Of a stretch of 64,000 bases of DNA, positions 8,695 to 62,561 are shown piece after piece. Position 1 is the first letter of the stretch; each line of letters opens with the position of its first letter. The translations under genes were made by a program, and so were the position numbers. The notes under the pieces were generated by a model that was not told the DNA's origin, searched no databases, and was given only the letters and a program-made list of their open reading frames with translations. The DNA is taken from NCBI RefSeq assembly GCF_027460265.1, contig NZ_JAPZBC010000001.1, forward strand, positions 6,870,001-6,934,000, in the 5' to 3' direction. Source of the DNA: Streptomyces sp. WMMC940. GTDB lineage: Bacteria > Actinomycetota > Actinomycetes > Streptomycetales > Streptomycetaceae.

Positions 8695-8703
8695 ACCCGG
8701 GGA

Positions 8704-8736: not shown

Positions 8737-8753
8737 CGTCCCGGCAGCCCTCC

Positions 8754-8785
8754 GCCCCGTCCGGTGCACGATCACCGGACGGGGC
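8754..8785. terminator. Second hairpin, bidirectional terminator between convergent icd and betA
   Basis: GCCCCGTCCGGTG (8754-8766) pairs perfectly with 8773-8785, a 13-bp stem with a six-base loop. It lies between the convergent ends of icd and the GMC oxidoreductase gene, so it may stop transcription from both sides. Confidence 0.7.
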
Positions 8786-8823
8786 GCATCCGTCGGCGGC
8801 CCTGGAGCCGCAGCGAGGCCCGC

Positions 8824-10404: not shown

Positions 10405-10651
10405 GGCATCTCCAGGTCGTCGGGGAGCCGTCAGGTCGTGTCCGGACGCGTCCGGGCGTGCCTGGAGGGCTCGTCAGGAGCCGCCGGACCGCCGGTCGGC
10501 GCGGACTGGTACGCGTGCTCGGCGAGCACGCCCGTCCTTCGGCGCCGGACGAACGGGTTCCGGCCTGTGGCCCGGTTCCGCGAGCGACGGTCCGGCGTGG
10601 CGGCCGGGACCCGACGGGTCCTCCCGTACGGGGCCCGTTCCGCGTCGGCCG

Positions 10652-12121
10652 TCATGCGAACCACCTCTGTGGGCTCGGTGCGAGATTGCGCCAGATGTGC
10701 TTGGCCTCGAGGTACTCGCCCAGACCGGCCAGTCCGAGTTCGCGGCCGAACCCGGACTGCTTCATCCCTCCCCACTCCGCCTGCGGGACGTACGGATGGA
10801 AGTCGTTGATCCATACCGTGCCGGCCCGCATCCTCGAAGCCACCCGGTGGGCGCGCGCCGGATCCCCGGTCCAGACGGCTCCCGCGAGCCCGTAGACCGT
10901 GTCGTTGGCGAGCGCCACCGCCTCTTCCTCGTTGCGGAACCGCTCCACGGTCAGCACCGGGCCGAAGGACTCGTCGCGCACCACGGTCATGTCCGGGGTG
11001 CACTCGTCGAGCACCGTCGGGAGGTAGTAGAAGCCGTCGGCGAGCTCCGGGTCGTCCGGTCGGGAGCCGCCGCAGCGCAGGACCGCGCCCTCGGCGAGAC
11101 CGGCCGCGACGTACGCCTCGATCTTCTCCAGATGTCCGGCGGAGATCAGGGGGCCCGCGCGGGCGTTGTCGTCGAAGGGCCCGCCGAGCCTGATGGACTC
11201 CGCCTGCTTGACGACCTCCGCCACGAACGCGTCGTGCAGATCCTCCTGCACCAGTAGGCGTGCCCCGGCCGAGCAGACCTGGCCGGAGTGGAGGAAGACG
11301 GCGGTCGCCGCGTAGTCCACCGCCGCCTCGAACTCCGCGTCGGAGAACACCACGTTCGGGTTCTTGCCGCCGAGTTCGAGCGCCACCTTCTTCACCGTCG
11401 GCGCGGCGGCCGCCATGATGCGACGGCCGGTGACCAGGCCGCCGGTGAACGAGACCATGTCCACCCTGGGGTCCTCGGTGAGCGGGGCCCCGACCACACC
11501 GCCCGCGCCCAGCACCAGATTGGCGACGCCGTCGGGCAGCCCCGCCTCGGTGAGCAGCCGCATCAGCATCACCGCGGTGTGCGGGGTCAGTTCACTCGGC
11601 TTGAGGACGAAGGTGTTGCCGGCGCCGAGGGCCGGGGCGACCTTCCACGAGGTCTGGAGCAGTGGGTAGTTCCACGGAGTGATCAGCGTGCAGACCCCGA
11701 CGGGCTCATGGACGACCCGGCTGTCCACGTCCGGCTGTCCGGCGTCGACGACGCGGTCGTGACCGCCCGCCGCCACGAGATGGCCGAACCAGCGGAAGCA
11801 CCTGGCGATGTCGTCCATGTCGTACGCGCTCTCCACCATCCGCTTGCCCGTGTCCAGTGACTCGGCGCGGGCGAGTTCGGCCTTGTCACGCTCCAGGAGG
11901 GCGGCGGTGCGCAGCAGCAGCCGGCCGCGTTCGGCCGCCGGGGTGCGGGGCCAGGGCCCGCTGTCGTAGGCGTCCCGGGCGGCGGCGAGGGCGGCGGAGA
12001 CGTCCTCCGGTCCCGCCTCGTCGACGGTCGCCACCAGTGTGCCGTCGGCCGGACAGCGGATCTCCCGCTTCCTCCCGCCGGCCGCGGCGGTCCAGGTACC
12101 GCCGATGAAGAGCTCGGGCAT
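10652..12121 (-). CDS. betB: NAD(P)-dependent aldehyde dehydrogenase, probable betaine aldehyde dehydrogenase
   Basis: 489 residues, the standard aldehyde dehydrogenase length. The catalytic Glu is in [12 protein letters not shown] and the catalytic Cys in [25 protein letters not shown] and [23 protein letters not shown] C-terminal family blocks are recognisable. It would oxidise betaine aldehyde to glycine betaine. The gene lies upstream of the choline-dehydrogenase-like gene and is probably its first operon partner. The 247-nt gap between the two is wide for a tight operon and shows no recognised gene. The start is the ATG at 12121, just before the conserved LFIGGTW beginning. Confidence 0.82.
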
Positions 12122-47733: not shown

Positions 47734-49074
47734 ATGCCGGACGGAAACACCGGCTCCGAGGGACGTGACCTGGAGCAGTTGCGTGCCCGGATCGCGGCAC
47801 TGGAGGCCCGGGAGCAGCCCCCGGCCCGGCCCCCCCGGCACCGCATGCGCTCCGCGCTCGCCGCGGTGCTGATCGTGATCGGCTGCGTGCTCGCCCCGCT
47901 CAGCGCGGTCGCGACCTGGGCCGAGAGCGAGGTGGGCGACACCGACCGCTACGTCGCCACCGTCGCTCCGCTCGCCTCCGACCCCGATGTCCAGGCAGCC
48001 GTCGCGACCCGGGTCACGAACGTCGTGATGGAGCACATCGACCTCCCCGCGCTGCTGGAGGACGTGGCCCCGGCCGACCGTCCGCGGCTCGACGCCCTGA
48101 TCGGCCGGCTCGGAGGCGCCCTGGAGAACGCCGTCCGCAGCTTTGTGCAGGCCCGTACCCAGGACATCGTCGCCTCCGAAGCCTTCCAGCGGATCTGGAC
48201 CGACGCGAACCGCCGGATCCACGCCGCGGTCGACAAAGCCCTCACCGGCAGCGGGGGCGGAGCCATCGAGCTCACCGACAACGCCGTCAAGATCGACCTC
48301 GCGCCCGTCATCGAGCAGGTCAAGCAGCGCCTGGTGAACGAGGGCCTCACCATCGCCGAGAAGATCCCGGAGATCCACACCGACTTCACCGTGCTCCAGT
48401 CCGAGGACGTCGGCCGCGTCAAGACCGGGTTCCGGCTGCTCCAGCTCGCGGGCACCTGGTTGCCGATCGTGGCCGTCGTGCTGATCGCCGCCGGAGTGCT
48501 GCTCTCCGCCCATCGGAGAAAGGCCCTGGTGGCGGCCGCGCTCGGGGTCGCGGTCGCCACAGCGCTGCTCGGCGCGGGTCTCACGGTGTTCCGACTGATC
48601 TATCTGGACTCCCTGCCCAAGGGCGTGTCCCAGCCCGCGGCGGAGTCCGTGTTCGACGCCCTCGTCCGCTTCCTGCGCACCACGATCCGCAACATCGTGA
48701 TGCTCGGCGTCGTCGTCGCCCTCGCCGCCTGGCTCACCGGACCCGGCCGCTACGCCGGTCTCGCCCGGCAGCTGTGGACGTCCGGCATCGCCGCAACCCG
48801 CGCCACGGCGAACCGCGCGGGCCTGCGCACCGGGCCTGTCGGCCCGTGGGTGCGCCGCTACCGGACGTGGATCATCTGGGTGCTGGTCGCCGCCGCCGTG
48901 CTGGCGTACGTCCTCTGGTCGTACCCCACCGCCTGGGTCGTCGTCGGACTGGCCCTCGCCCTGCTCTTCGCCCTCGCGATCGTCGAGTTCCTGGCGCAGG
49001 ACGACGAGGGGGCGCCCCCGGAGCCGCCGGCCCGCGAACCCGCGGCCACCGGTGGCCCACCCGGCGCCCCGTGA
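47734..49074 (+). CDS. Polytopic membrane protein of unknown function
   Basis: 446 residues. A short coiled-coil-like N-terminus (LEQLRARIAALEAREQ) precedes a transmembrane helix at about 42-62. An extracytoplasmic domain of about 180 residues follows (TDRYVATVAPLASDPDVQAA through VLQSEDVGRVKTGFRL). Four or five more membrane helices make up the C-terminal half, ending in a Pro/Glu-rich tail. The exported domain resembles a family of actinobacterial membrane proteins that I cannot name. The ATG at 47734 has GGAGGAG upstream. A hairpin at 49077-49107 follows the stop. Confidence 0.75.
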   Translation: MPDGNTGSEGRDLEQLRARIAALEAREQPPARPPRHRMRSALAAVLIVIGCVLAPLSAVATWAESEVGDTDRYVATVAPLASDPDVQAAVATRVTNVVMEHIDLPALLEDVAPADRPRLDALIGRLGGALENAVRSFVQARTQDIVASEAFQRIWTDANRRIHAAVDKALTGSGGGAIELTDNAVKIDLAPVIEQVKQRLVNEGLTIAEKIPEIHTDFTVLQSEDVGRVKTGFRLLQLAGTWLPIVAVVLIAAGVLLSAHRRKALVAAALGVAVATALLGAGLTVFRLIYLDSLPKGVSQPAAESVFDALVRFLRTTIRNIVMLGVVVALAAWLTGPGRYAGLARQLWTSGIAATRATANRAGLRTGPVGPWVRRYRTWIIWVLVAAAVLAYVLWSYPTAWVVVGLALALLFALAIVEFLAQDDEGAPPEPPAREPAATGGPPGAP

Positions 49075-49076
49075 GA

Positions 49077-49107
49077 CCCCGGCCTCCCGGGCCCCCGGAG
49101 GCCGGGG
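49077..49107 (+). terminator. Terminator-like hairpin between the membrane protein gene and polX
   Basis: CCCCGGCCTCC (49077-49087) pairs with GGAGGCCGGGG (49097-49107), an 11-bp stem that starts two bases after the stop codon. polX follows 41 nt later. Confidence 0.6.
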
Positions 49108-49148
49108 CCCGCACGGCGCCCGCCGGTCCGCCGTGTGACGCTGGATCC

Positions 49149-50870
49149 ATGGCCAGGGCCAACGACGAGATAGAGGCGATCCTCCAGGAGTACGCCGACC
49201 TCATCGCCATCACCGGCGGCGACGCCTTCCGGGCCCGTTCCTACGAGAAGGCCGCCCGCGCGATCGGCGGCTACCCCGCCGACGTGGCCACCCTCGACCC
49301 CAAGGGACTGCGCGAGATTCCCCATGTCGGCAAGTCCATCGCCGACAAGATCGTGGAGTACCTGGCGTCCGGGCGGATCACCGCCGTGGAGGACCGGCGG
49401 CAGTCCGTACCGGCCGGGGTGCGGGAGCTCATCGCCATCCCCATGCTCGGCCCGAAGAAGGCGCTGCTCCTCTACGAGGAGCTGGGCATCTCCTCCGTGG
49501 ACCAGCTGCTCGACGCGGTCCACGAGGAGCGGCTGCGCGATCTGAGGGGCTTCGGCGAGAAGACGGAGGCGAACATCCTCCACGGCATCGCGCTCATGCA
49601 GAAGGCCGGTTCCCGGATCCTCCTCAACGCCGCCATGGACGCGGCCGAGCAGATCGTCGACGAACTGTCGGGCGTCGAGGGCTGCGAGAGGTGCGCCTAC
49701 GCAGGATCGCTGCGCAGGATGTGCGAGACCATCGGCGACATCGACATCCTCGTCGCCGCGGACGCCTCGGCTCCCTTCATGGACGCGCTCGCCGCACTTC
49801 CGTACACGGCCGAGGTGATCGCCCACGGCGCCAAGAAGACGTCCATCCGCACGACCAAGGGACTGCAGGTCGATCTGAGGGTGCTGCCGCCCGAGTCCTG
49901 GGGCGCGGGACTGCAGTACTTCACCGGGGCCAAGGCGCACAACATCCGCACCCGTGAGATCGCGGTGCGCCAGGGGCTCAAACTGTCCGAGTACGGGCTC
50001 TTCGACGCCGAGAGCGGCGAGAGGATCGTCTCCTCGACCGAGGAGGAGATCTACGCACGCCTGGGCCTGCCCTGGATCCCCCCGACCCTGCGCGAGGACC
50101 GGGGCGAGATCGAGGCCGCGCTCCGTGGTGAACTGCCCGTGCTGGTCACGGAGGAGGACATCCGCGGCGATCTGCACACCCACACCGATCTCACCGACGG
50201 TCTGGCCCCGCTGGAGGAGATGGTCGCCGCGGCCGCGGCGCGCGGATACTCCTACTACGCGGTGACCGACCATGCCCCGGACCTCGCCATGCAGCGCATG
50301 ACGAAGGAGAAGGCGCTCGCCCAGCGGGAACGGGTCCGTGAACTCGACCGCCGGCGCACGGGCATGCGCCTGCTGCACGGCACCGAGCTCAACATCGGTC
50401 CCGACGGGGACGTGGACTGGCCCGACGACTTCCTCGCGGGCTTCGACATCTGTGTGGCCTCGATCCACTCCCACTTCAACCAGAGCCGGGACGACCTCAC
50501 CCGCCGCCTCGTCCGGGCCTGCGAGAACCCGTACGTCTCCGTCATCGGCCACCCCACGACCCGCAAGATCGGCAAACGGCCCCCCGTCGACGCCGACTTC
50601 GACGCGGTCTTCGCGGCCTGCGCCCGCACGGGCACGGCCCTGGAGATCAACGCCCACCCCGAGCGGCTCGACCTCGGTGACGAGGACATCCTGCGCGCCA
50701 AGCGCCACGGCGTGCGCTTCGCGATCGACTCGGACGCGCACTCCACCACCCATCTGCCCTACATGAGGTACGGGGTGGCGACGGCCCAGCGCGGCCGGCT
50801 CACCAAGGACGACGTCGTCAACACCTGGCCGCCGGCGAGACTCAGGCGCTTCCTGCGCCCCTCGGCCTGA
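49149..50870 (+). CDS. polX: PolX-type DNA polymerase/3'-5' exonuclease (Pol X + PHP)
   Basis: 573 residues, the same architecture and size as B. subtilis PolX. N-terminal helix-hairpin-helix motifs (LREIPHVGKSIADKIVEYL) are followed by the Pol X palm with GSLRR and GDIDIL metal-binding aspartates and QVDLRV. The C-terminal PHP domain has DLHTHTDLTDG, VTDHAPDL and IHSHFN metal ligands. Such enzymes fill short gaps and remove 3' ends in base-excision repair. The ATG at 49149 begins at MARANDEIEAIL, typical of the family. Confidence 0.93.
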   Translation: MARANDEIEAILQEYADLIAITGGDAFRARSYEKAARAIGGYPADVATLDPKGLREIPHVGKSIADKIVEYLASGRITAVEDRRQSVPAGVRELIAIPMLGPKKALLLYEELGISSVDQLLDAVHEERLRDLRGFGEKTEANILHGIALMQKAGSRILLNAAMDAAEQIVDELSGVEGCERCAYAGSLRRMCETIGDIDILVAADASAPFMDALAALPYTAEVIAHGAKKTSIRTTKGLQVDLRVLPPESWGAGLQYFTGAKAHNIRTREIAVRQGLKLSEYGLFDAESGERIVSSTEEEIYARLGLPWIPPTLREDRGEIEAALRGELPVLVTEEDIRGDLHTHTDLTDGLAPLEEMVAAAAARGYSYYAVTDHAPDLAMQRMTKEKALAQRERVRELDRRRTGMRLLHGTELNIGPDGDVDWPDDFLAGFDICVASIHSHFNQSRDDLTRRLVRACENPYVSVIGHPTTRKIGKRPPVDADFDAVFAACARTGTALEINAHPERLDLGDEDILRAKRHGVRFAIDSDAHSTTHLPYMRYGVATAQRGRLTKDDVVNTWPPARLRRFLRPSA

Positions 50871-50916
50871 CCGCCGGTCCCGGCGCGCCCGTCGATCCGG
50901 CCGCCCGGCCCACCGC

Positions 50917-51711
50917 TCAGCACGGCAGGCGCCATGCGTCCAGCTCCAGCCGCTTGCGCATGGAGGACAGTCCCAGCCGTCGGGACTCCGCGCAGAACTC
51001 CCGGTTGGGCAGCGCGTACTCGACGTGGAAGACGGCCTTCCCCGCCGCGACGAACGGGGTGAGCTTCGCGCACTCGCCGTACTGGGCGCATTCCTCGTTG
51101 ACCGCGAAGTCGAAGTACCCGACCAGCTCCGCCACCTGGGGCAGGTCGTTCTTCAGCCCGACGGACAGCCCGCGTTCATGGGCGATACGGGCGATCATGC
51201 GGTTGTAGGCGAGCTGGTGGGCGGCGGTCAGCGGGAAACCGGTGTCGTTCAGATGGGCGTCCAGCAGGTCGGGTTCGACCGCGTCGAAGCCCTTCTCCCG
51301 GCACATGTCGAAGCGCTTCTCCATGAGGGGCCCCAGTACGTCCAGCCGGCGGATGTCGAGCCACCGCTCGCCGTCCCAGCCGTTCGGCCGGCCGCGCACG
51401 GAGACCGGGAAGTCCGCCTGGTCGGGACGGAAACTCTCCCAGGCACCGGCGTTGATGTAGCAGATGACCCGGCGTCCGTCCCGGTGCAGCCGCGCGACGT
51501 CGTCGGCGCTGTTCTCGAAGCCGTCGATGTCGTACACGGGCACATCCGCCGCCGAGGGGTCCGCGCGGCCGTCGAGCTGCCACTGCCACGCCGTGCCGGG
51601 CCGGGGCTGCCAGCGGGCCCCGTCCGGGTCCGGTGGGGCGCCGCCGGAGCAGCCCGCCACCAGCAGCACGGCGAACAGCAGGCACAGCCCGGGGACACTA
51701 CGGCGGTTCAA
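50917..51711 (-). CDS. GH114-like endo-alpha-1,4-polygalactosaminidase lipoprotein
   Basis: 264 residues. The N-terminus is a lipoprotein signal, CLLFAVLLVAGC, with a lipobox Cys near residue 21. The mature part has YDIDGFENSADDVARLH, ICYINAGAWESFRPD, then GFDAVEPDLLDAH and AVNEECAQYGEC, the pattern of GH114 glycosidases that cut alpha-1,4-linked galactosamine polymers. The TTG at 51711, within TTGA overlapping the upstream stop, was chosen because GGGAGG lies just before it and the signal begins there. It is the last gene of the exopolysaccharide operon and may trim or recycle the polymer at the cell surface. Confidence 0.82.
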   Translation of the reverse strand: MNRRSVPGLCLLFAVLLVAGCSGGAPPDPDGARWQPRPGTAWQWQLDGRADPSAADVPVYDIDGFENSADDVARLHRDGRRVICYINAGAWESFRPDQADFPVSVRGRPNGWDGERWLDIRRLDVLGPLMEKRFDMCREKGFDAVEPDLLDAHLNDTGFPLTAAHQLAYNRMIARIAHERGLSVGLKNDLPQVAELVGYFDFAVNEECAQYGECAKLTPFVAAGKAVFHVEYALPNREFCAESRRLGLSSMRKRLELDAWRLPC

Positions 51712-52370
51712 GGAGCCTCCCGGTACAGGGCGGGGGGCGGTGCGCCCCAGGGATTGGGCAGCGAGTCGGCGACCGCGCAGTACACCGCGGCCCCGCGCTC
51801 GCCGGCCGCCCGGGCCGCGACGTCCGCCAGTGCCGTGGGCACCTCGTACACCAGGTGGCAGAACCGCTCCGGCGGATGCCGGGCCGTCCAGCGGGGCCGG
51901 GAGAAGGTGGAGAGATAGACCGGCCAGGGGCCCTCGAACGTCACCAGCAGATCGGCGATCCGGGCGTAGCCCGGCGCCGGGTGCACCCCGTGGTTGAGGA
52001 CGACCGTGCGACAGCCCCGCTGCCGTGCCGCGCGGACGAGACGGCGGCACCCGGGCAGGGCTGACCGGTCCGCGGGCACCTGGTCGAAGAAGCAACCGTC
52101 CGTGTCGTACCACTCGCGATGGCGGTCCAGGTCACCGGTCACCGCCGTGTCCGGGCGCACCCCGTAGTCCAGGTCGACATAGCCCAGGACGCGCGTGCCC
52201 GCCTCCCGCAGGGCGCGGGCGGCGGAGACGAACGCGGGATCGGGCGCCGAGCCGGGGCCGTCGGCCGGGTTCAGCACCACCCCGTGGACCCGGTCCCCGG
52301 CGGCCGTGACCAGCCGCCAGGCTTCCGGGTCCTCCGCGGGATGCACATAGAGCGGGACCAGCAGCGTCAT
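51708..52370 (-). CDS. Spherulation-specific family 4 (Sph3-like) protein
   Basis: 220 residues without a signal peptide. The segments LVPLYVHPAEDP, VHGVVLNPADGPG, VLGYVDLDYGVR and the acidic YDTDGCFFDQVP are typical of spherulin-4-type proteins. Aspergillus Sph3 of this family (GH135) is an endo-galactosaminidase for galactosaminogalactan. The ATG at 52370 overlaps the upstream epimerase stop, and its stop overlaps the TTG of the GH114-like gene. Adjacency of two hydrolases of galactosamine-polymer families is notable. Lack of a signal peptide is odd for a polymer hydrolase, and its activity here is inferred. Confidence 0.78.
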   Translation of the reverse strand: MTLLVPLYVHPAEDPEAWRLVTAAGDRVHGVVLNPADGPGSAPDPAFVSAARALREAGTRVLGYVDLDYGVRPDTAVTGDLDRHREWYDTDGCFFDQVPADRSALPGCRRLVRAARQRGCRTVVLNHGVHPAPGYARIADLLVTFEGPWPVYLSTFSRPRWTARHPPERFCHLVYEVPTALADVAARAAGERGAAVYCAVADSLPNPWGAPPPALYREAP

Positions 52371-53281
52371 GCCACCGGGTCCGCTTCCCCGTCGGCGCCG
52401 AGCGACGCCCACAGCGAGGTGAGGGAATCGGTCAGGGTGAACCGCGGCTCCCAGCCGAGGGCATCCCGTGCCGCCGTGATGTCCGAGCACTGCCAGGCCA
52501 CGCCGGCGGAGCGCGCCGATCCGATGCCGGCCTCGTCGACGCGGCCCCGGAACCCGGCGACGGCCACCAGCCCCTGCACCAGCTCCCGGATCGGAACGGC
52601 CCGGCCGCCGCCGATGTTGAGGATGCGCGGGAGCGGCCCGGAGGCGGTCGCCGCCAGCACGACCGCCCGGGCCAGGTCCCGCGCGTCGACGAAGTCGCGG
52701 TGGGCGGACAGATCACCGAACCGCACGACCGCGTCATGGTCCCCGCCCGCCCGGCGCAGCCGCAGGGCGGTGCCGCCCGGCAGGCTCATCGGCGCGGCGC
52801 CCGGACCGACCGGGTTGCCCACGCGCAGTACGACGGCGTCGAGGCCCGACGAGGCGACGGCCACCGTCCCGGCCAGTTTGGTGGCGCCGTACGAGCCCAC
52901 CGGCCGCGTCGGTGCCTCCTCCGTGACCGGTACACCGGGCTCACCCGCCCCGTACTCGGCCGCCGAACCGAGGTGTACCAGCCGGGCGGTCGGCGCGGCC
53001 TTGCGGAGTGCCGCGCACAGCACGGCCGGGCCGCGCGCGTTGACCTCGGCGTCGGTCACCGGGTCGGCGCCGAGCGACCCGGCGCAGTTGACCACCGCGT
53101 CGGGGGAGAGGTCCGCGAGCTTCTCGGCCAGCCGCCCCGTGTCGACCGTGGCGAGGTCGACGCGGAGGTCGGCGTCCGGGGACCGGCCGCCGCCGAAGAG
53201 CCGCACGCCCCCCAGCGCGCTGAGCTGTGCGGCGACATGGCGGCCCAGGTACCCGGTGTGGCCCAGGACGAGGATGTGCAT
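52367..53281 (-). CDS. NAD(P)-dependent sugar epimerase/reductase (SDR)
   Basis: 304 residues, extended short-chain dehydrogenase. The nucleotide-binding motif is LGHTGYLGRHVA at the start, AEYGA and SYGATKLAG give the catalytic YxxxK, and NIGGGRAVPI follows. It resembles RmlD/GDP-fucose-synthase-like reductases or epimerases of nucleotide sugars, probably using NADP. The gene starts seven bases after the nucleotidyltransferase gene stops and overlaps the spherulin-like gene. The sugar substrate is unknown. Confidence 0.83.
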   Translation of the reverse strand: MHILVLGHTGYLGRHVAAQLSALGGVRLFGGGRSPDADLRVDLATVDTGRLAEKLADLSPDAVVNCAGSLGADPVTDAEVNARGPAVLCAALRKAAPTARLVHLGSAAEYGAGEPGVPVTEEAPTRPVGSYGATKLAGTVAVASSGLDAVVLRVGNPVGPGAAPMSLPGGTALRLRRAGGDHDAVVRFGDLSAHRDFVDARDLARAVVLAATASGPLPRILNIGGGRAVPIRELVQGLVAVAGFRGRVDEAGIGSARSAGVAWQCSDITAARDALGWEPRFTLTDSLTSLWASLGADGEADPVA

Positions 53282-53288
53282 GGGGTGT

Positions 53289-54002
53289 TCAGGCTCCCTT
53301 GAGCAGCAGTGACTGATGGGTGGTGAACTCGGCGTTGGCCCGGTCGTAGTCGTCCGGCCGGCCGATGTCGAGCCAGTAGCCTTCGAACTCGTAGGCCTGC
53401 GGCGGGTTCCCGGCCTTCAGCAGGTCCAGGACGAGTTCGTCGAAGCCGAGCGGCAGCCCGGCGGTGTATCCGTCGAGCGTGTCCCGGGAGAGCCCGTACA
53501 CGCCCATCGAGACGCGGTAGTCCATGGACGGCTTCTCGGCGAAGCCGACCACCTTCCCTGCGTCCGTGGTGAGCACGCCGAAGTCGATGTGCACCTTGCG
53601 GGCGTACGTGGCGATGGTCAGCGCCGACCCGCTCGCGCGGTGCCGGCCCAGGACGTCGGCGAAGTCGAGGTCGGTGAGGATGTCCCCGTTCATGACGAGG
53701 AACGACTCGGGCAGCCGGTCGCGCATCGTCAGCAGCGGGCCCATGGTGCCCAGCGGGTTCTCCTCGGTCGCGTAGTCGATGCTCAGCCCCCATCGTGAAC
53801 CGCTGCCGACGTAGGCGCGGATGATGTGGCCGAGATGGCCGACCGCGATGGTGCAGCTCGTGAAGCCGCTCGCCGCCAGCTGACGCAGCACGATCTCCAG
53901 GATCGCGTGCCGGTCGCCGATCGGGACGAGCGGCTTGGGCAGCGCGGTGGTGTACGGGCGCAGCCGGATGCCCTTGCCTCCGGCGAGAATCACTGCGTGC
54001 AC
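53289..54002 (-). CDS. Sugar-1-phosphate nucleotidyltransferase
   Basis: 237 residues, RmlA/GalU-like. AVILAGGKGIRLRPYT with the catalytic G-x-G-x-R-L-x-P and LPKPLVPIGDRH is at the N-terminus; VMNGDIL, a metal-binding Asp, follows in the middle. It transfers a nucleotidyl group from an NTP to a sugar-1-phosphate to supply activated sugar. It lies between the two SDR genes, 40 nt downstream of one. Which nucleotide and sugar it uses cannot be told. Confidence 0.88.
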   Translation of the reverse strand: MHAVILAGGKGIRLRPYTTALPKPLVPIGDRHAILEIVLRQLAASGFTSCTIAVGHLGHIIRAYVGSGSRWGLSIDYATEENPLGTMGPLLTMRDRLPESFLVMNGDILTDLDFADVLGRHRASGSALTIATYARKVHIDFGVLTTDAGKVVGFAEKPSMDYRVSMGVYGLSRDTLDGYTAGLPLGFDELVLDLLKAGNPPQAYEFEGYWLDIGRPDDYDRANAEFTTHQSLLLKGA

Positions 54003-54042
54003 GGTAGCCCCCTGTGAGTACGGTGGTCGGTGGTCCGCCGGG

Positions 54043-55044
54043 TCAGATGTTGTAGATGCCGGTCTTGTAGCGGGAGAGGTTGGCGGGGTCGCGGAAGAAC
54101 TCCACCGTCCGTGCCAGTCCCTGCTCCAGGTCGAGGGCGGGAGCCCACCCGGTCGCCTCCCGCAGTCGGGTCGCGTCCGCGACCAGCCGCATCACCTCGG
54201 AGTTCGCGGGCCGGATGCGTTGTTCGTCCTCCCGGACGTCGAGGTCGGTGTCCATCACCTTGCCGACGAGCCGCACCAGGTCGCCGACCGAGATCTCGCC
54301 GCCGGTACCGGCGTTGAGGGTGCGTCCCACGACCGCCTCGGCCGGTGCGGTGCCCACGGCCAGGAACGCCGCGGCCGTGTCCGTGACGTAGGTGAAGTCG
54401 CGTGTGGGCCGGAGGTCGCCGAGGGTGATCGTCCGCTCCCCGGCGGCGACCTGCCCGATGACGGTCGGGATGACGGCCCGCATCGACTGGCGGGGGCCGA
54501 AGGTGTTGAAGGGCCGCAGGGTGACCACCGGTGTGCCGAAACTGGCGTGGTAGCTGTCGGCCAGCCGGTCCCCGCCGGCCTTCGAAGCAGCGTACGGGGA
54601 CTGGGTGTTGATGGGATGGTCCTCGGTGATCGGCACGGTCTGCGCGGTCCCGTACGTCTCGCTGGTGGAGGTGTGCACCAGCCGCGGGGTCCCAAGGGTC
54701 CGCACGGCCTCCAGCACATTGAGCGTGCCCGTGACATTGGTGTCCACATAGCTGTGGGGGGCGCGGTACGAGTAGGGGATCGCGATCAGAGCCGCCAAGT
54801 GGTAGACGGCCTCGGCCCCTTCGGCGAGCCCGCGGACCGAGCCGGGGTCGCGGACGTCACCGAGCACGATCTCGACCTGGTCGAGGACGTCCTGCGGCAG
54901 TGTCTCCAGCCAGCCGTAGGAGGAGAAGGAGTTGTACTGCGCCATCGCGCGGACCCGGTGTCCCGAGGCGACGAGGGCCTCGGTCAGATGGGAGCCGATG
55001 AAGCCCTCGGCTCCGGTGACGGCGGCGAGCGGTGCGGATGTCAA
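54043..55044 (-). CDS. NAD-dependent nucleotide-sugar 4,6-dehydratase/epimerase (LegB-like)
   Basis: 333 residues. The Rossmann motif is AVTGAEGFIGSHLTEAL, catalytic Thr/Tyr/Lys are in STSETYG and SPYAASKAGGD, followed by RPFNTFGPRQSMRAVIPT. The last block and the NTQSPYAASK pattern recall LegB-type and related hexose 4,6-dehydratases. Product and donor nucleotide are unknown. It supplies sugar for the nearby glycosyltransferase. It lies 148 nt downstream of the polytopic membrane protein gene, the largest gap within the operon. Confidence 0.86.
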   Translation of the reverse strand: MTSAPLAAVTGAEGFIGSHLTEALVASGHRVRAMAQYNSFSSYGWLETLPQDVLDQVEIVLGDVRDPGSVRGLAEGAEAVYHLAALIAIPYSYRAPHSYVDTNVTGTLNVLEAVRTLGTPRLVHTSTSETYGTAQTVPITEDHPINTQSPYAASKAGGDRLADSYHASFGTPVVTLRPFNTFGPRQSMRAVIPTVIGQVAAGERTITLGDLRPTRDFTYVTDTAAAFLAVGTAPAEAVVGRTLNAGTGGEISVGDLVRLVGKVMDTDLDVREDEQRIRPANSEVMRLVADATRLREATGWAPALDLEQGLARTVEFFRDPANLSRYKTGIYNI

Positions 55045-55192
55045 CTTTCTTTCCTTTCGGGGAGGTTCGCTGCAAGGAGCGGTGGTGTGCGGGCGGTGGA
55101 CGGGAGCGGTCCGGACACGGGGGCCGGAACCCGCGCGATTCGGCGGGCGGTTGCCGCGAGCGGCAACGAGCGGCGGGCGGCGGACGACGGGG

Positions 55193-56575
55193 TCAGGAGT
55201 GCGCAGTGGGTCTGCCCAGACACCACAGGACGGCGGTGACGAGCACCCCGGCGGCGGTGCCGCAGCAGATCAGCAGCGGGGCGGCGATCGTTGGGCCGCC
55301 GAGCAGGGTGACGGCGGCCACCCCGGCGGCCGCGGTGAGCGTGACCGCGGCCGGGAGCCATGCCAGTCCGAAGGCCTGGAGCAGCAGCGCGGTCCACAGC
55401 AGCGCGGCGAGGGCCAGCAGGGGTGCCGGTTCGGCGCCGGTGAGCAGCGCCGCCGGGACGAGCGGCAGCAGATAGCCGCCCAGACACAGCGCCAGCGTCC
55501 GGGCGGACCTCAGCCGGAACCCGACCTCGTCCGCCGAGGCCCGCAGTGCCGCCACCGACAGCCCCCGGTAGCGGTACAGCAGCCATTCCGCGGGGCCCAT
55601 ACTGACGGTGAGCACGACCACCGCCCAGGGCTGACGCTGCCCCACGGACATCACCAGCGTGCCCGCGGCCAGACCGAACAGCCCGTACGGCAACGAGTCG
55701 AGAAGCCGCGGCCGGGTGCCACCGGACGCCCTCTCGGCAGCGAGCATCCCCCGGATCTCCCGGCCGGCGACGGCGACGGCGAGCACCACCGTCAGCACCG
55801 GCAGTGCGATCCGCGGCAGTGGGCCCGGGTCCCACCACGGCAGCACCGCCGCGCCCGCGGCCAAGGGGGCGAGCGTGCCGAGCAGCAGCCGTTCCCGGCC
55901 GCGGACCAGGAGCACTCCGGCCGCCGCGAGATACAGCGACTGCCCGGCGCCGAACAGGGCGACGGGCCCCGGTCCCGCCACCGCAAGGGCAGCCGCCGTG
56001 GCGAGCAGGGCACCCGAGGGAGCGCCCACGAGCAGCGTCCGGCCCGCCCCTCGAGGCCCCGCGGCCAGCCGCAGATACGCCCGGTGGCTGAGCGCCTGGC
56101 CCCAGGCCCACGACAACAGGCCCGCGGCCACGAGCGCGTACACCCCGCCTGGCGAGCGCCACATGCCGGCCGTCAGCAGATAGGCCAGTCCCGGCAGGGC
56201 GAACAGCGCCCCGCGCAGGGCGCACCGGACGTGGTCCGGCGCCCAGGGATCCGGCCCGCGCGGGGGCTCGGGGAAGCTGCGCGGCACCCGCCCGTACAGG
56301 TCGGCGGCGAGCGAGAACAGATCGGGACGCCCGTAGCGCTCCTGGATCTGCTCACCCGTCAGGCCCTCCGACTCCAGCAGGGCCGCGACCTCGTACGCGT
56401 GCACCGCGGGTCCGATGCGATCGGCGAGTTCGGCGGCGAGGACGTCCACCGGGTCGTCCGGCACCCGTCTGCGCCGGGGCAGGCGCAGCGACAGCGTGGC
56501 GTCCGGCGCGGCGAGCCGCAGGGCCAGCGTGTCGCCCTGCCCGCCGTCGGGTTCGAGAGCCATCGGCCCGCTCAT
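55193..56575 (-). CDS. Polytopic membrane protein, candidate polymer exporter (PelG position)
   Basis: 460 residues. A soluble N-terminal part of about 130 residues (DPVDVLAAELADRIG, LTGEQIQERYGRPDLF) is followed by ten or more hydrophobic segments from about 135 to the end. In Pel operons, pelF (glycosyltransferase) is followed by pelG (polytopic transporter), and here the gene overlaps the PelF-like gene (ATG at 56575 in ATGA). Direct sequence resemblance to PelG is not evident to me, and the N-terminal domain is unlike it, so the exporter role is a positional inference. Confidence 0.68.
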   Translation of the reverse strand: MSGPMALEPDGGQGDTLALRLAAPDATLSLRLPRRRRVPDDPVDVLAAELADRIGPAVHAYEVAALLESEGLTGEQIQERYGRPDLFSLAADLYGRVPRSFPEPPRGPDPWAPDHVRCALRGALFALPGLAYLLTAGMWRSPGGVYALVAAGLLSWAWGQALSHRAYLRLAAGPRGAGRTLLVGAPSGALLATAAALAVAGPGPVALFGAGQSLYLAAAGVLLVRGRERLLLGTLAPLAAGAAVLPWWDPGPLPRIALPVLTVVLAVAVAGREIRGMLAAERASGGTRPRLLDSLPYGLFGLAAGTLVMSVGQRQPWAVVVLTVSMGPAEWLLYRYRGLSVAALRASADEVGFRLRSARTLALCLGGYLLPLVPAALLTGAEPAPLLALAALLWTALLLQAFGLAWLPAAVTLTAAAGVAAVTLLGGPTIAAPLLICCGTAAGVLVTAVLWCLGRPTAHS

Positions 56576-58083
56576 CCGGCCACGCTCCCCAGCGGTGCCT
56601 CGTCGCTGAGGGGCGTGCCCCAGGGATCGGCCAGCCGCACCCCCCGGACGGAGAGTTCCAGGTAGATGGCGCGGAAGGTGTCGATGGTCTGCCGGAGCGT
56701 GAACTGCTCGATCACCCGCAGTCTCGCGGCCTCGCCCATCGCCGCCCGGCGCGGGGGATCGGCCAGCAGCTCCAGCGCGGCCGCGGCCATGGCCCCGGGA
56801 TCGCGGGGCGGGACGACCAGCCCGGCGTCGCCGACCGCCTCCCGGACGCCGCCGACGTCGGTGGAGACGGTGGCCCTGCCGCACGACATGGCCTCGATCA
56901 GGGTGAAGGGGAATCCCTCGCTGATGCTGGACAGCATCACGACGTTGCCCGCGGCGTAGGCGTCCTTGATGTCGTCGACCCGGCCCTCGAAGGTGACGGC
57001 GTCGCCGTGGCCGAGCGATGCCGCGAGTGCCTCGCACCGCTCGCGGTACGCCTCGCCGCCCCGGGGCGTGCCGCCGAACAGCCTCAGGGTGGCGGCGGGA
57101 AGCGCCCCGCGGACCTCGGCGAACGCCCGGATCAGGGTCTCCAGGTCCTTGATGGGGTCGACGCGCCCCGCCCAGCTGAGCGTCGGGCCCTGCGGTTCGG
57201 GGCCGGCGGGCGGGAAGGCGGACGGGTCCACCCCGTTGTAGACGGTGCGGATGAGTCGGGGATCGGCGCCACCCTGCTCCTCCCACAGCCGGTTGTAGCG
57301 GTTTCCGGGCGTGATGAGGGCGGCGCGGCGGTAACTCTCCTCGGCCAGCAGCCGGAAGAAGCCGAGCAGCAACGCCTTGACCGGCCAGCGGTACGGAGCG
57401 GTCCGGTAGCCGAGATAGCGTTCGCGCAGATAGACCCCGTGCTCGGTGAGCAGCAGGGGGACGCCGTGGAGTTCGAGGGCGGCCAGCCCCGGCAGCACCG
57501 CCACGCCGCCGCTGACCGCGTGCGCCACTCCGCGCTCCGGCGGCGGCGCCGCGAGCGGCCGCAGGGCGTGCTCCAGCAGCGCGGTCGCGGTGACCGCGTC
57601 GTGGAGGCTGGGCCGCGCCTCCCGGACGGTCAGGCCCCGGCGGTTCCACACCGCGGTCAGGACGCGCAGTGCCCGGTCCCCGCGCAGCGCGGGACCGAGC
57701 ACCCCGTCCCGGGCGGCGTGGGCCATTTCGTACAGGGCGGGGGAGAACCCCTCCTCGGCGGTGGGGTCCACCAGCGCCGTGAGGAAGCGCTCGTACGCCG
57801 CCATCAGCCGGCGTTCACGCCGGCCGCGCGGCGGTGAACCGGGGGGTGCGGGGCCCCACATGGGGACCGTGACCGGCTCGGCCACGTGCGGGGGCAGTTC
57901 CCATACGACGGATTCCCGTCCGGTGCCGGTCACCGCGATGACGTCGAAGTCGATGTCGGGCATGCCGCCGACGAGCTGGTCGCACCAGACGCTGACCCCG
58001 CCGTGACTGTGCGGGTAGGTGCCTTCGGTGAGGAGGGTGACGCGTGCCGCGTCTCGGCGCGGCGCACGAGGCGATACGTGCAT
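56572..58083 (-). CDS. PelF-like family 4 glycosyltransferase
   Basis: 503 residues, cytosolic GT-B fold. GTYPHSHGGVSVWCDQLV near residue 20, LTEHGVYLRERYL in the middle and ITPGNRYNRLWEEQGG are hallmarks of PelF. The C-terminal GT4 motif reads SSISEGFPFTLIEAMSCGRA with the E-x7-E pattern. PelF uses a UDP-activated hexosamine to build the Pel backbone. The ATG at 58083 is 127 nt after the deacetylase gene stop; the gene overlaps the membrane-protein gene. No PelD (c-di-GMP receptor) or PelE homologue was seen. Confidence 0.87.
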   Translation of the reverse strand: MHVSPRAPRRDAARVTLLTEGTYPHSHGGVSVWCDQLVGGMPDIDFDVIAVTGTGRESVVWELPPHVAEPVTVPMWGPAPPGSPPRGRRERRLMAAYERFLTALVDPTAEEGFSPALYEMAHAARDGVLGPALRGDRALRVLTAVWNRRGLTVREARPSLHDAVTATALLEHALRPLAAPPPERGVAHAVSGGVAVLPGLAALELHGVPLLLTEHGVYLRERYLGYRTAPYRWPVKALLLGFFRLLAEESYRRAALITPGNRYNRLWEEQGGADPRLIRTVYNGVDPSAFPPAGPEPQGPTLSWAGRVDPIKDLETLIRAFAEVRGALPAATLRLFGGTPRGGEAYRERCEALAASLGHGDAVTFEGRVDDIKDAYAAGNVVMLSSISEGFPFTLIEAMSCGRATVSTDVGGVREAVGDAGLVVPPRDPGAMAAAALELLADPPRRAAMGEAARLRVIEQFTLRQTIDTFRAIYLELSVRGVRLADPWGTPLSDEAPLGSVAG

Positions 58084-58210
58084 GGATGGGCTCCACGGCA
58101 GGAGGGCGGGCGGGGCGGGTTCCGGGCGTTCCCGGCGGGACGCTCTGCACGGCGTGCGGCGTCCGGAACCCGCGTCCTCGCGGTGAGCTGGTGCGGCCGG
58201 TGCGTACGGG

Positions 58211-60370
58211 TCAGCGCTCGACGCCCGGGACCACGGGGCGAGCGACGCCCGTGGGCACGGGACCGTCGGGCGCCGGCGCCGAGGCCCGTCCGGGGCCGGC
58301 GGCCGGGCTCCCGGAAGCGGGGGCCGACGGCAGCGAGAGGGCCAAGCCCTCCTGACCGGGACCCGGCGGCACGCTGCCGGAGACCGTGCCCGCGTACGGC
58401 TCCCCGAAGGCCGCCGGTCCGCCCGGGAGCACCCGGGTGGTTCCCGTCGGCATGGTGGCGCGGACGGCCGTGCCGGCCGGAGCCGTGACGGTGACCGTGT
58501 CGCCGATCCGGTACGCCGTGACCTGACCGGCCTTCACCGCGCGGTCCCAGGCGGCCCGTTCGCTCAGCTCCGCCCCGACGTCCTTCATCCTGGGGTTCAC
58601 CAGCGGGGTGTCGTCCGCGTACAGCGTCGCGTACTGGTCGAGGATCCGGTCCAGGACCGGGTAGGCGAGGCGGTCCTCGGCCAGGTTCGACTGGTGGATG
58701 AAATGCGGCCGGGGGTCGTTGGCCAGGACGTGGCCCATGGCGATCCGTGCCTCGAGCGGCACGATGTGCTCCGCGTAGCCCGTCGCGGGGTCGAGCGGCG
58801 CGTCGAGACAGGTGGTCGTGGCCGAGTCCTCGCAGATGCCGCTGCCGCCCTGGGCCCTGCTGGTGTAGATCCAGTTGTACTCGTCGACCTGCTCCGCGGC
58901 CCGGCCCACGTTGTAGAACACGTTCATCGGGTGGCGCGAGACGGTGAGCGCGGGGCCGACCTGCCGCTGCACCGGGTCACGGGAGTTGTCCGAGGCGAGC
59001 CAGGTGACGCCGTTGTCCGCGAGCGCAGGGGCGAGGTGGGGATTGTCCTCGGGCTGTTGCGGCAGCAGCTTCAGGCCGGAGTGCTCCCCGGTGACCAACT
59101 CACCGCTCTCCAGAGGCAGTCCGGCCCGCTCGGCCCACTGCCGGTTGTCGGAGATCTGCCGTGATATCTCGTCCCGCCCGACGTAGCGGACGCTGCCGTC
59201 AGGATTCGTGGCGCACCTCCACGGAACGACGCTCACGTCCTGCTCGCAGCCCAGGTACGGGTGGTCGTAGGTGTGGTTGATCCAGCGGAAGGCATCGCGG
59301 TCCACGGTGAGCCGGTCCGCCAGTGGATCGGCCCCGCCGTGCTCCTCCCGGTGCTCGACGCTGCCACCGCCGTTGTACGCGAGGTCGAGGGTGAAGTCCC
59401 GGGAACGCGACCACTCGACCGCCCGGCCGACGTCGTCGGGCGTCATCCGGATCGGGTTCGGTGTGCCCTGACCGGGCAGGCAGTCGACGTCCCCCGGTGT
59501 GCAGTTGAGCTCGGTGTCCCAGCGGTCGTCGGCGGCGAAGACGTCGTCGACGTGGACCGAGAACCAGTTGCGCGAGCTGCCCAGCCGTGTCCCCTGTGTC
59601 ATCCAGTCGACGATGCCCCGGGCGAGCAGGCGGAACTGCTGCTGGTGCTGGTTGGCCACGAAGGTGACCACCAGTTCGCGGCGGCCGTCGTGCCGGTACT
59701 CCCCGACGAGCGAGCCCCTGGCGGTTCCTCCGGGGAGGGGCGCGTCGACATAGGTGGTGAAGTCGGCGCCCGCCCGTGGCCGGGAGAGGAAGCCCCAGCT
59801 CTCGTCCACCGCGGGGTCGTTGTCCTCGAAGGTGAAGACGCCGTCGAGGTAGCCGAAGGGTCCGGCCTTCCCGGCCGCGGTCACCGTTGCGGTGATGCCG
59901 TCCACGGGCCCCGCGTACCCGCCGTTCACGGGGTACTCCAGCCCCGCCTGCGGCCGGGCGTAGGTGTACGCGTCGACCTGCGGGATCGCGTAGGTCCGCT
60001 CGTAGTCCGCCAGGGCGGCCATCTCCTGCGAACCGGTGGGGAACGGCTGGTCGTTGGGCAGTACCACGGCCTGGTACCTGGCGCGGGGACGGCCGTCGAC
60101 CTCGTCCGCGAGGAAGGCGGCGTCGATGACGGGCCGGCCCTCGTCCGCGAGGTCGACCACGGTGTACGGGGTGCCCGCGCTGTCGAGTTCGGCGGCGATC
60201 GCGGCCGTCGCCGGGCCCCCGTCGGAGACCACCAGCACCCGGAGGTCGATCCTCGGTGCCGGTTCGGCCGCCTGCGCCGGCGCCGCCGGCAGTCCGCCGA
60301 GCGAGATGATGAGCGCTCCTGCGGCGAGTGCGGTCGTGCGTATGGTCCGCCGGACGCGGATCCGCTTCAT
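58211..60370 (-). CDS. Secreted CE4-like polysaccharide deacetylase (PelA-deacetylase-like)
   Basis: 719 residues. The signal peptide is at 1-34 (basic KRIRVRRT, hydrophobic core, APAQAA). The middle has VHVDDVFAADDRWD with the metal/catalytic aspartates and later NHTYDHPYLGC carrying the H-x3-H metal site of CE4 deacetylases. An upstream N-terminal region (VLVVSDGG to AALADYERTY) is glycosidase- or Rossmann-like and unassigned. The C-terminus ends in an Ala/Gly/Pro-rich tail. In Pel systems PelA deacetylates the polymer after export. It is the first gene of the operon; the ATG at 60370 has GGGAGGG upstream. Confidence 0.82.
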   Translation of the reverse strand: MKRIRVRRTIRTTALAAGALIISLGGLPAAPAQAAEPAPRIDLRVLVVSDGGPATAAIAAELDSAGTPYTVVDLADEGRPVIDAAFLADEVDGRPRARYQAVVLPNDQPFPTGSQEMAALADYERTYAIPQVDAYTYARPQAGLEYPVNGGYAGPVDGITATVTAAGKAGPFGYLDGVFTFEDNDPAVDESWGFLSRPRAGADFTTYVDAPLPGGTARGSLVGEYRHDGRRELVVTFVANQHQQQFRLLARGIVDWMTQGTRLGSSRNWFSVHVDDVFAADDRWDTELNCTPGDVDCLPGQGTPNPIRMTPDDVGRAVEWSRSRDFTLDLAYNGGGSVEHREEHGGADPLADRLTVDRDAFRWINHTYDHPYLGCEQDVSVVPWRCATNPDGSVRYVGRDEISRQISDNRQWAERAGLPLESGELVTGEHSGLKLLPQQPEDNPHLAPALADNGVTWLASDNSRDPVQRQVGPALTVSRHPMNVFYNVGRAAEQVDEYNWIYTSRAQGGSGICEDSATTTCLDAPLDPATGYAEHIVPLEARIAMGHVLANDPRPHFIHQSNLAEDRLAYPVLDRILDQYATLYADDTPLVNPRMKDVGAELSERAAWDRAVKAGQVTAYRIGDTVTVTAPAGTAVRATMPTGTTRVLPGGPAAFGEPYAGTVSGSVPPGPGQEGLALSLPSAPASGSPAAGPGRASAPAPDGPVPTGVARPVVPGVER

Positions 60371-60914
60371 GCGGTGTTGTCCCTCCCCCTGACCCCCCGG
60401 CACAACGACGCGGCGGCTCCCCCCGGAAACGCCGTGCCGTTGTGCCCTGTCCCGAGACATATTGGAGGCTGCGTGTGGGTTGTGTGCGCCTACCGTGAAA
60501 ATTGACGTGAAAGCGCAGGTGTCGCACGGAAGTCGGCGACGGGCGGGAGCAGTTCCTGCGCCAGGGGGCCGGGCGGGCGCGGCGGGTAAACGCTTGCAGT
60601 CGCGGGCCGGGCGGACAAGGTGACGGCCGGGGCGATGAGTGTTTTCGGCCAGAGGCGCGCCGGCTCCGGTCGCGGGTGCCCGCGCGGGAGCGTGGCCGCA
60701 CCGACCGGGTGCCGGTGCGCGCGGGGCGCGCCCGTGCCGGCCGGCTGCCGCCGCTCGAAGCCGGGCCCGTACGGCCGACGGCGGCCACCGTCGCGAGTGC
60801 GTCCGGCGGCCGCCGCGGTGTTGCGGGGAGGTCGGGAAGGTCAGTGGGCCGGGGAGGTGGAGCCGGTAGGGGAGGTGGGGGAGGCCCGGCGGGGGCACCG
60901 GGTCGCCCGGGCCG
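60371..60914. other. Intergenic region upstream of the exopolysaccharide operon
   Basis: This 544-nt region holds no supported gene. It must contain the promoter of the operon, reading left. An AT-richer patch, including ACATATTGG near 60458-60466, lies about 90 nt before the start and is a plausible promoter site, unproven. The right part lies downstream of the small secreted-protein gene. Confidence 0.5.
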
Positions 60915-61442
60915 TCAGGAGGCGGCGGGCTCCGCGGGGGCGCAGGCCACCCGGGTCTCCGGCGTGTTGTGGATGCCGTCCTTGGTGCGCTGCCCGTTCT
61001 CGTACTCGTAGTACAGGTACGAGTAGAAGCCGATGGTCCCGTTGCAGCCCGAGTCGGCCGCCACCTGGTACGTCAGGGTGACGGTCCGGGAGGTGCCGGG
61101 GGCCAGCGGGATGTCGTAGTTGACGCCGAGGGCGGTCGAGCCGGTGCCCGAGCAGGCGGCGCCCTGGGCGGTGCACGAGACGAAGCTGTACTTGAGGTCC
61201 TTGCGCTGGGTCGTCGCCCAGGTCGGCTGCACCGACTGGTACACGAACCGGATGTCCGTCGACTGGTTGTTGGTCAGGGTCATCGTCAGCGACACGGTCG
61301 AGCCCGGTGTGGTCACCGGCTGGTCGACGGTGAAGGCCAGGTCCGGGGTGTCGGCCGCGGCGGGCTGTGCCGCGCCGAGGCAGACGAGGGCAGTGGCGAG
61401 AGCGGCTGACTGTCCGAGGCGTCTCAGGTGTGTGATGCGCAT
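60915..61442 (-). CDS. Small secreted protein of unknown function
   Basis: 175 residues with a signal peptide (MRITHLRRLGQ, hydrophobic core, AQPAAA cleavage near 30). The mature part is Thr/Ser-rich and beta-strand-like (FTVDQPVTTPGSTVSLTMTLTNNQSTDIRF), resembling a single Ig-like or DUF11-type fold. Four cysteines (SCTAQGAAC, SGC, VAC) could form two disulfides. The aromatic stretch YSYLYYEYENG is notable. The ATG at 61442 begins the signal peptide. It is divergent from the glutamate transporter and its function is unknown. Confidence 0.75.
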   Translation of the reverse strand: MRITHLRRLGQSAALATALVCLGAAQPAAADTPDLAFTVDQPVTTPGSTVSLTMTLTNNQSTDIRFVYQSVQPTWATTQRKDLKYSFVSCTAQGAACSGTGSTALGVNYDIPLAPGTSRTVTLTYQVAADSGCNGTIGFYSYLYYEYENGQRTKDGIHNTPETRVACAPAEPAAS

Positions 61443-61766
61443 GGGCCGGGAGGCTAGGAGAGCGCCGCCGAACCCGTCTGCCCCGCTCCGTGCCGGGCGG
61501 GTGTCGCCCGGCGCGAAACCGCCGTGGACCTGCGCGGGTCCGGAGGCCCGCGCAGCGCGTCCGTCTGGGCGCATATGCGCCGGACATTGCCGGTGCTCCC
61601 ACCCTCCGCATCCGGTCGCTCACCGTGTGCGCGATGTCACTCAGCGGAAGTACGACAATGGCCGGTTCCGCGGCGCGGCGTTCCGACACCGGGCCCCGGA
61701 GGACTGCGGACCGGGGCGCGCCGGCGGGGCGCTCCCGGAGTGCGGCCCGGCCGGAGTGGAAGGACG
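61443..61766. other. Divergent promoter region of the secreted protein and glutamate uptake genes
   Basis: This 324-nt region contains no supported gene. It should hold divergent promoters. A stretch near 61640-61665 with ACGACAATGG is less GC-rich than its surroundings, but no confident -10/-35 pair is proposed. Confidence 0.5.
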
Positions 61767-62561
61767 ATGAAGCCGATGAGCGGAGCGGCCGTGAGCAACG
61801 AACCCTTCAACCCGGGCATGAGCAGTCGTGCGCTGGTCGAGCTGCACCACGTCGACAAGCACTTCGGCCCGCTGCACGTCCTGCGGGACATCAATCTGAC
61901 CGTCGACCGCGGTGAGGTGGTCGTCGTCATCGGCCCCTCCGGCGGAGGCAAGTCCACGCTCTGCCGCGCCATCAACCGCCTGGAGGCCGTCGACTCCGGC
62001 GAGATCGCCATCGACGGCCGCCCCCTGCCCGCCGAGGGCAGGGAACTCGCCAGGCTTCGCGCCGACGTCGGCATGGTCTTCCAGTCCTTCAACCTCTTCG
62101 CGCACAAGACCGTCCTGCAGAACGTGACCCTCGGCCAGATCAAGGTCCGCGGGAAGGACCGAAGGAGTGCCGAGGAGCGGGCCCGCACCCTTCTGGACCG
62201 CGTGGGCGTGGGGACGCAGGCCGACAAGTACCCCGCCCAGCTCTCCGGCGGACAGCAGCAGCGGGTGGCGATCGCCAGAGCGCTCGCCATGGACCCGAAG
62301 ATCATGCTGTTCGACGAGCCGACCTCGGCCCTGGACCCGGAAATGATCAACGAGGTGCTGGAGGTCATGCGGCAGCTCGCCAGGGACGGGATGACCATGG
62401 TGGTCGTCACCCATGAGATGGGGTTCGCCCGTTCGGCCGCCAACCGCGTGGTGTTCATGGCCGACGGCAGGATCGTGGAGGAGAGCACACCCGAAGAGTT
62501 CTTCACCAACCCCCGTACCGACCGAGCCAAGGACTTCCTCTCGAAGATCCTCCACCACTGA
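61767..62561 (+). CDS. gluA: Glutamate ABC transporter ATP-binding protein
   Basis: 264 residues from the ATG at 61767; ATG 61776 and GTG 61791 are possible starts too. Walker [10 protein letters not shown], signature [16 protein letters not shown], Walker [15 protein letters not shown] and switch His in [12 protein letters not shown] are all present. It powers uptake of polar amino acids and forms the usual gluA-gluB-gluC order with the next two genes, as in Corynebacterium gluABCD. Confidence 0.93.

Follow-up and report, generated by a model that had tools for sequence, protein, structure and literature searches.

A candidate Pel/galactosaminogalactan-type exopolysaccharide locus conserved in Streptomyces

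Gene content of the locus

Eight genes on the minus strand of the Streptomyces sp. WMMC940 genome (7.67 Mb) appear to form an exopolysaccharide locus, which we read, with a probability of about 0.7, as a hybrid of the Pel and galactosaminogalactan (GAG) systems for making, exporting and remodelling a secreted hexosamine polymer that is cationic through partial de-N-acetylation. They were found in a window of 64,000 nucleotides (contig NZ_JAPZBC010000001.1, positions 6,870,001 to 6,934,000), between the first ATG of a deacetylase gene at 60370 and the last stop of a GH114 gene at 50917 (window numbering).

The gene order from 60370 to 50917 is deacetylase, PelF-type glycosyltransferase, polytopic membrane protein, a first short-chain dehydrogenase/reductase (SDR1), nucleotidyltransferase, a second one (SDR2), spherulin-4-like protein (Sph) and GH114 lipoprotein; all eight same-strand genes of a preliminary description of this DNA were recovered. 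Start and stop codons overlap by four bases between glycosyltransferase and membrane protein (56572-56575), SDR2 and Sph (52367-52370), and Sph and GH114 (51708-51711), and the organization is therefore operon-like. Third-position GC was coding-like in six of the eight frames; the frames of the membrane protein and GH114 were placed by start and homology, the longest open reading frames there merging into overlapping ones. Scans for sigma-70 promoters and terminators revealed nothing within the locus, and Rfam gave no match in 50500-62500. The exact BldD box consensus was absent from the locus; the window as a whole contains it once, at 27889, against a mean of 4.18 occurrences expected by chance.

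Deacetylation and hydrolysis of the polymer

By sequence relation and catalytic motifs, the putative secreted deacetylase (58211..60370, 719 aa) is of the Agd3 type, CE18 with CBM87, and is predicted to deacetylate oligomers of alpha-1,4-linked N-acetylgalactosamine (GalNAc). Profile A5, composed of four Streptomyces rows and four bridging relatives, matched the Agd3 structure 6nwz at E 1.3e-46 in two stretches, over the CBM and the catalytic domain. The bridging relatives were picked up by a profile of Streptomyces rows only (A1) and lie above the cut-offs of PF25115 and PF25116. The CE18 motifs CM1-CM4 given in PMC7229062 (D, D, HxxxH, R, H) comprise six catalytic positions, and all six are kept in 80 of 80 rows.

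The preliminary description had named this enzyme CE4-like and counted a PelA-type deacetylase among the Pel parts. Both assignments were rejected because the enzyme has the CM3 arginine and CBM87 and matches Agd3 best, and CE18 takes their place. PelA constitutes a separate family, CE21 (PMC12022489), whose members are without the CM3 arginine; the window enzyme has it. With such a deacetylase the locus leans to the GAG side.

The GH114 endo-galactosaminidase-like lipoprotein (50917..51711, 264 aa) has a TTG start and the lipobox LVAGC. It matched PF03537 with 279.4 bits and the Ega3 structure 6oj1 with E 3.5e-50, in agreement with its earlier description. The equivalent of the nucleophile Asp189 is present in 58/58 rows and that of the acid/base Glu247 in 57/58, with one gap (Ega3 residues from PMC12054363), and a lipobox-like cysteine was found in 47 of the 58.

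Sph (51708..52370, 220 aa) was likewise rightly placed with spherulin-4/GH135, matching PF12138 with 106.5 bits and the Sph3 structure 5c5g with E 4.2e-9. Equivalents of D166 and E222 occur in all 64 rows, whereas at the position of E167 45 rows have R and 19 have Q (Sph3 numbering 166/167/222). No signal peptide was seen on reading the sequence by eye: the Sph protein opens with the first strand of the barrel, the ATG overlaps the SDR2 stop, and the relatives start alike, with one N-terminus (L035) spoiled by masked bases and another (L085) longer and polar. The GH135-like protein is thus apparently leaderless and may be cytosolic. PMC12054363 gives the Sph3 catalytic pair as Asp196/Glu222 and describes Sph3 as working where the chain exits the membrane. 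In fungi both hydrolase families have galactosamine polymers as their substrates; this locus may handle another sugar, since the SDR pair looks like a dehydratase and a reductase.

Polymerization and export

The PelF-type GT4 glycosyltransferase (56572..58083, 503 aa) scored 164.5 bits against NF038011 (PelF, cut-off 100) and 202.2 bits against PF11997 (DUF3492). PelF proteins adjoining a true PelG reach about 500 bits with NF038011, so the window protein represents a divergent branch. In an IQ-TREE tree of 31 GT4 rows, unrooted and midpoint-rooted for drawing only, a 98/96 split placed it in a side of 15 rows with the PelG-adjacent PelF proteins, and the 16 other GT4 rows lay opposite. The earlier naming as PelF-like is thus borne out by profile and tree; the protein did not group with non-Pel GT4 enzymes, nor did the hydrolases fall outside GH114 and GH135, the outcome which the preliminary description had named as contrary to it.

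The polytopic protein (55193..56575, 460 aa) shows a MOP/MATE fold in its predicted structure, with an extra N-terminal helical stretch at about residues 42-105, and it occupies the place of PelG. PelG itself (PF16933) had no match in this protein or in the genome, and a control was matched in Thermotoga. PF16963 (PelD) gave no match, and its positive control likewise gave none, which makes the absence of PelD described earlier only tentative. PelF and the exporter co-occur across genomes, and a PelF/PelG/exporter pattern was observed.

Sugar-nucleotide genes

SDR1 (54043..55044, 333 aa) is a candidate nucleoside diphosphate (NDP)-hexosamine 4,6-dehydratase. Among NCBIfam models it was closest to LegB (TIGR04180, 453.7 bits), the next model reaching 166 and GalE 144. 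A T-x-E motif marks dehydratases; TSTSETYG is present in 70/70 SDR1 rows, STCEVYG in 3vps, presumably the tunicamycin enzyme TunA, and SSAAVYG in 6wjb. SDR2 (52367..53281, 304 aa), a reductase/epimerase-type protein and candidate 4-ketoreductase, has as best solved relative 2pk3, a GDP-6-deoxy-D-lyxo-4-hexulose reductase (E 5.1e-21), and carries SAAEYG in 67 of 68 rows. As to a Uge3-type C4-epimerase, SDR1 thus shows the TSE and SDR2 the SAA motif.

The sugar-1-phosphate nucleotidyltransferase (53289..54002, 237 aa) matched PF00483 with 136.7 bits; its best NCBIfam model was mannose-1-phosphate guanylyltransferase (134.3 bits, far under the cut-off of 440). LegB acts as a dehydratase on GDP-N-acetylglucosamine (GDP-GlcNAc; PMC7439481). 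Together these results are compatible with an NDP-6-deoxyhexosamine, but plain C4-epimerization is possible. Elsewhere in the genus, an SDR1 relative of 56% identity (L146, 8710-10919) adjoins a gene reading like a different glycosyltransferase, and the dehydratase family may therefore have further uses in Streptomyces.

Distribution and related clusters

Of 162 deacetylase relatives in contigs with one genome per species, 80 were kept for analysis. All 80 are Streptomyces, and identity to the window deacetylase reaches 92% (S. wuyuanensis). Sixty-five of these loci have at least 8.3 kb past the deacetylase, and gene content was counted there with tblastn (E 1e-8). The full eight-gene set, colinear and on a single strand, was present in 54 of the 65, and with such conservation a chance grouping can be dismissed. 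Sph was not found in two of the 65. The flanking genes glnQ and polX are strongly conserved in L004 and L006 only, and glnQ alone in L005, which suggests that the block occupies different genomic places.

Among 101 sampled genomes of the genus, the deacetylase was matched in 53 and SDR1 at 82% identity or more in 26. A single contig holds both genes, no more than 7 kb apart, in 24 of the 26 genomes; the exceptions are G182 and G338, the latter having them on separate contigs. The deacetylase match is partial in G260 and G311, and the G311 locus is decayed. A decayed copy is seen in L147 (about 7200-10960), where the deacetylase, PelF, exporter, SDR2 and Sph matches are fragmentary, no nucleotidyltransferase match was found, and SDR1 is still 84% identical across 323 residues.

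The same genome contains three related clusters. Cluster A is that of the window. Cluster B (L084) has deacetylase, PelF, exporter and GH114 only, and cluster C (L085, G000:C1:2482000-2501500, 6577-11476) has PelF, a divergent exporter, SDR2-like and Sph-like genes, without deacetylase or GH114. From these contents, deacetylase pairs with GH114 and SDR2 with Sph; cluster A unites both modules and adds SDR1 and the nucleotidyltransferase. The Sph copy of cluster C has Ser at the Glu222 acid/base position and may therefore be inactive; a gene beside this cluster reads like moeZ.

Outside the genus, deacetylase, PelF, exporter, nucleotidyltransferase and SDR2 of L099 precede a gene resembling UDP-glucose dehydrogenase and a further SDR. 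In L098 and L100 (about 3490-11175) a CE18/CBM87 deacetylase, in place of PelA, comes after a true PelF-PelG pair. Upstream of the pair in L098, where PelD would be expected, Pfam revealed a GAF-GGDEF protein, and L100 has a similar reading frame. In L152 (4609-13086), from a distant actinobacterium, genes for two membrane-type proteins (714 and 727 aa) are interspersed with those for a PelF-like glycosyltransferase and an exporter homologue, and these two proteins may be additional subunits.

Proposed pathway and alternatives

The predicted activities would be connected as follows. The nucleotidyltransferase would activate a hexosamine 1-phosphate. SDR1 as a LegB-like 4,6-dehydratase and SDR2 as a 4-ketoreductase might then convert it to an NDP-6-deoxyhexosamine, such as N-acetylfucosamine (FucNAc) or N-acetylquinovosamine (QuiNAc); no other part of the scheme is as uncertain as this conversion. 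PelF would polymerize the activated sugar in the cytosol, and the MOP-fold protein, standing in for PelG, would export the chain. Outside, the CE18/CBM87 enzyme would deacetylate it and the GH114 lipoprotein would cleave deacetylated stretches; the leaderless GH135-like protein would cleave acetylated chain on the cytosolic side.

Several observations weigh against this Pel/GAG hybrid. The window deacetylase alone scored 13.2 bits, below the Agd3_CE cut-off of 27.6, and neither phmmer with the single sequence nor profile A1 found a match in the PDB at E up to 1; the match of A5 to Agd3 depends on the bridging relatives, one of which (L099) is without the CM3 arginine. In a Foldseek search with the deacetylase model, 6nwz was not among the 50 best rows and a GH27 enzyme came first (TM-score 0.21), a result given little weight because the model is weak (predicted local distance difference test score 66). 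For the exporter, Foldseek TM-scores were about 0.4 only, and four of eleven genomes (G000, G128, G161, G204) contributed rows to its profile A3. Direct hhalign comparison of the exporter profile with two PelG sequences gave a probability of 0.1%, and A6, a profile of four distant homologues, was negative at 0.4%; yet A3 and A6 are clearly homologous (98.2%, E 3.2e-14) and one of the four A6 members, that of L152, matches PelG below threshold (20.6 bits against a cut-off of 29), so the exporter could be either a homologue or an analogue of PelG. GH114 was not found in nine of the 65 loci, and the G182 locus is without deacetylase and GH114. A leaderless GH135 is at odds with the known extracellular role of Sph3. 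In the sugar module, SDR1 falls short of the LegB cut-off of 475, and the solved structures that it matches best carry no closer title than epimerase/dehydratase family protein; the four-gene cluster B is without sugar-nucleotide genes, which implies that such polymers do not strictly depend on them.

The nature of the sugar is where the alternatives lie closest. At close to even odds, SDR1 and SDR2 are C4-epimerases supplying UDP-GalNAc/UDP-galactose for a Pel- or GAG-like alpha-1,4-GalNAc/galactosamine chain; this departs from the hybrid reading in the second step only, and the two are not exclusive. It agrees with fungal CE18, GH114 and GH135 acting on GalNAc/galactosamine polymers (PMC7229062, PMC12054363, PMC11356417), with the UDP-glucose 4-epimerase of fungal clusters, with the epimerase/dehydratase title of the best PDB match of SDR1, and with GalE models matching both SDRs under cut-off, but SDR1 has T-S-E in 70/70 rows against S-A-A in 6wjb, LegB exceeds GalE by 309 bits, and UDP-GlcNAc would presumably need no dedicated nucleotidyltransferase. 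The more specific possibility, which we hold only tentatively, is an alpha-linked poly-(6-deoxy-N-acetylhexosamine), e.g. poly-FucNAc/fucosamine, made from a GDP- or other NDP-sugar and polymerized by PelF; it would pass through a second, so far unrecognized Pel exporter family that replaces PelG and has a cytosolic stretch of its own. An Agd3-type enzyme would deacetylate the polymer outside the cell, and a GH135-like one would trim it within.

The hybrid reading has also to be set against two other functions. PelF might make a short lipid-linked glycan which the MOP protein flips as Wzx does, the product decorating cell wall or proteins instead of a matrix; this is unlikely, as the initiating phosphoglycosyltransferase, polymerase and ligase are absent from the eight genes, and two endo-hydrolase families with a CBM-bearing deacetylase suggest a long homopolymer. 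A scavenging locus degrading galactosamine polymers of fungi or other bacteria is very improbable: the secreted deacetylase and GH114 lipoprotein might act on GAG or Pel from other organisms, and an endogalactosaminidase of Streptomyces griseus was reported in 1975 (cited in PMC7229062), but a polymerizing glycosyltransferase, an exporter and a nucleotide-sugar module lie in the same operon, and a sugar importer and catabolic kinase are absent from the eight genes.

Neighbouring genes

A conserved small protein with a secretion-type N-terminus (60915..61442, minus strand, 175 aa) is encoded upstream of the deacetylase. It was found in 61 of 73 loci with room for it, at a median of 411 bp ahead of the deacetylase, and had one match only in its own genome. 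It belongs to the conserved neighbourhood, probably as a separate transcription unit, and is possibly a matrix protein. Past it, a divergent plus-strand gene (61524-62561) reads as an ABC-transporter ATPase. Beyond GH114, a convergent gene (48774-50870) encodes polymerase-beta and PHP domains.

Significance

Galactosamine polymers are familiar from fungal biofilms and Pel, and a low-level galactosamine-containing polysaccharide was reported from Streptomyces walls (cited in PMC7229062). The locus offers a concrete conserved gene set for testing, its SDR1 marker being present in about a quarter of the genus sample (26/101), and a candidate exporter family for PelF systems without PelG; such a substitute may account for the absence of the locus from PelG-keyed surveys. 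Its sugar-activating genes hint at an unusual building block, possibly a new polymer sugar. If the poly-6-deoxyhexosamine proposal were true, Pel and GAG would represent a family of cationic polymers differing in sugar, with a branch in Actinobacteria overlooked by PelG-based surveys.

Comparison with known systems

Like the Aspergillus GAG cluster (uge3, gtb3, agd3, ega3, sph3), the locus groups a CE18/CBM87 deacetylase, an Ega3-type GH114, a spherulin-4/GH135 protein and an SDR with a glycosyltransferase. It differs in having separate glycosyltransferase and MOP-fold exporter genes, Gtb3 being described as one transmembrane glycosyltransferase (PMC4817252), in the added nucleotidyltransferase and second SDR, in a dehydratase-type SDR1, and in a GH135-like protein that shows no signal peptide. 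That such genes moved horizontally between bacteria and fungi was suggested in PMC7229062 and also in PMC4817252, and the locus adds a parallel on the bacterial side to the proposal that the fungal cluster came from bacteria.

SDR1 resembles LegB, the NDP-GlcNAc 4,6-dehydratase of legionaminic acid synthesis, while scoring slightly under its cut-off; aminotransferase, NeuB and NeuC homologues are absent from the eight genes, and the legionaminic acid pathway was ruled out on the lack of aminotransferase and NeuB-type genes. With the Gram-positive pelDEADAFG operon (Whitfield et al. 2020, PMC7112168) the locus has in common a deacetylase and a PelF-type glycosyltransferase after which a membrane exporter is encoded; unlike that operon, the locus is without PF16933 PelG and without a recognized PelD, and its deacetylase is CE18-type instead of PelA-type.

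A close likeness is to the bacterial agd3-like operons surveyed by Bamford et al. (2020, PMC7229062), with Agd3 homologues in 45 bacterial species. These operons contain the deacetylase, a cytoplasmic glycosyltransferase and a multi-spanning membrane protein; GH114 is a very consistent member, and some Actinobacteria have spherulin-4 as well. Loci of this kind are therefore already known, and among the matches listed in the open-licence literature we recognized no study of it beyond that survey. As worded in the main-text section of PMC7229062, the PelF type, the MOP fold and its relation to PelG, the 4,6-dehydratase module and the leaderless GH135 are unnamed. Added here are the tree-based identification of the glycosyltransferase as PelF, the MOP fold together with the PelF/PelG/exporter pattern, a sugar module of dehydratase type, a GH135 without a leader, three clusters of modular composition, and the small protein encoded upstream.

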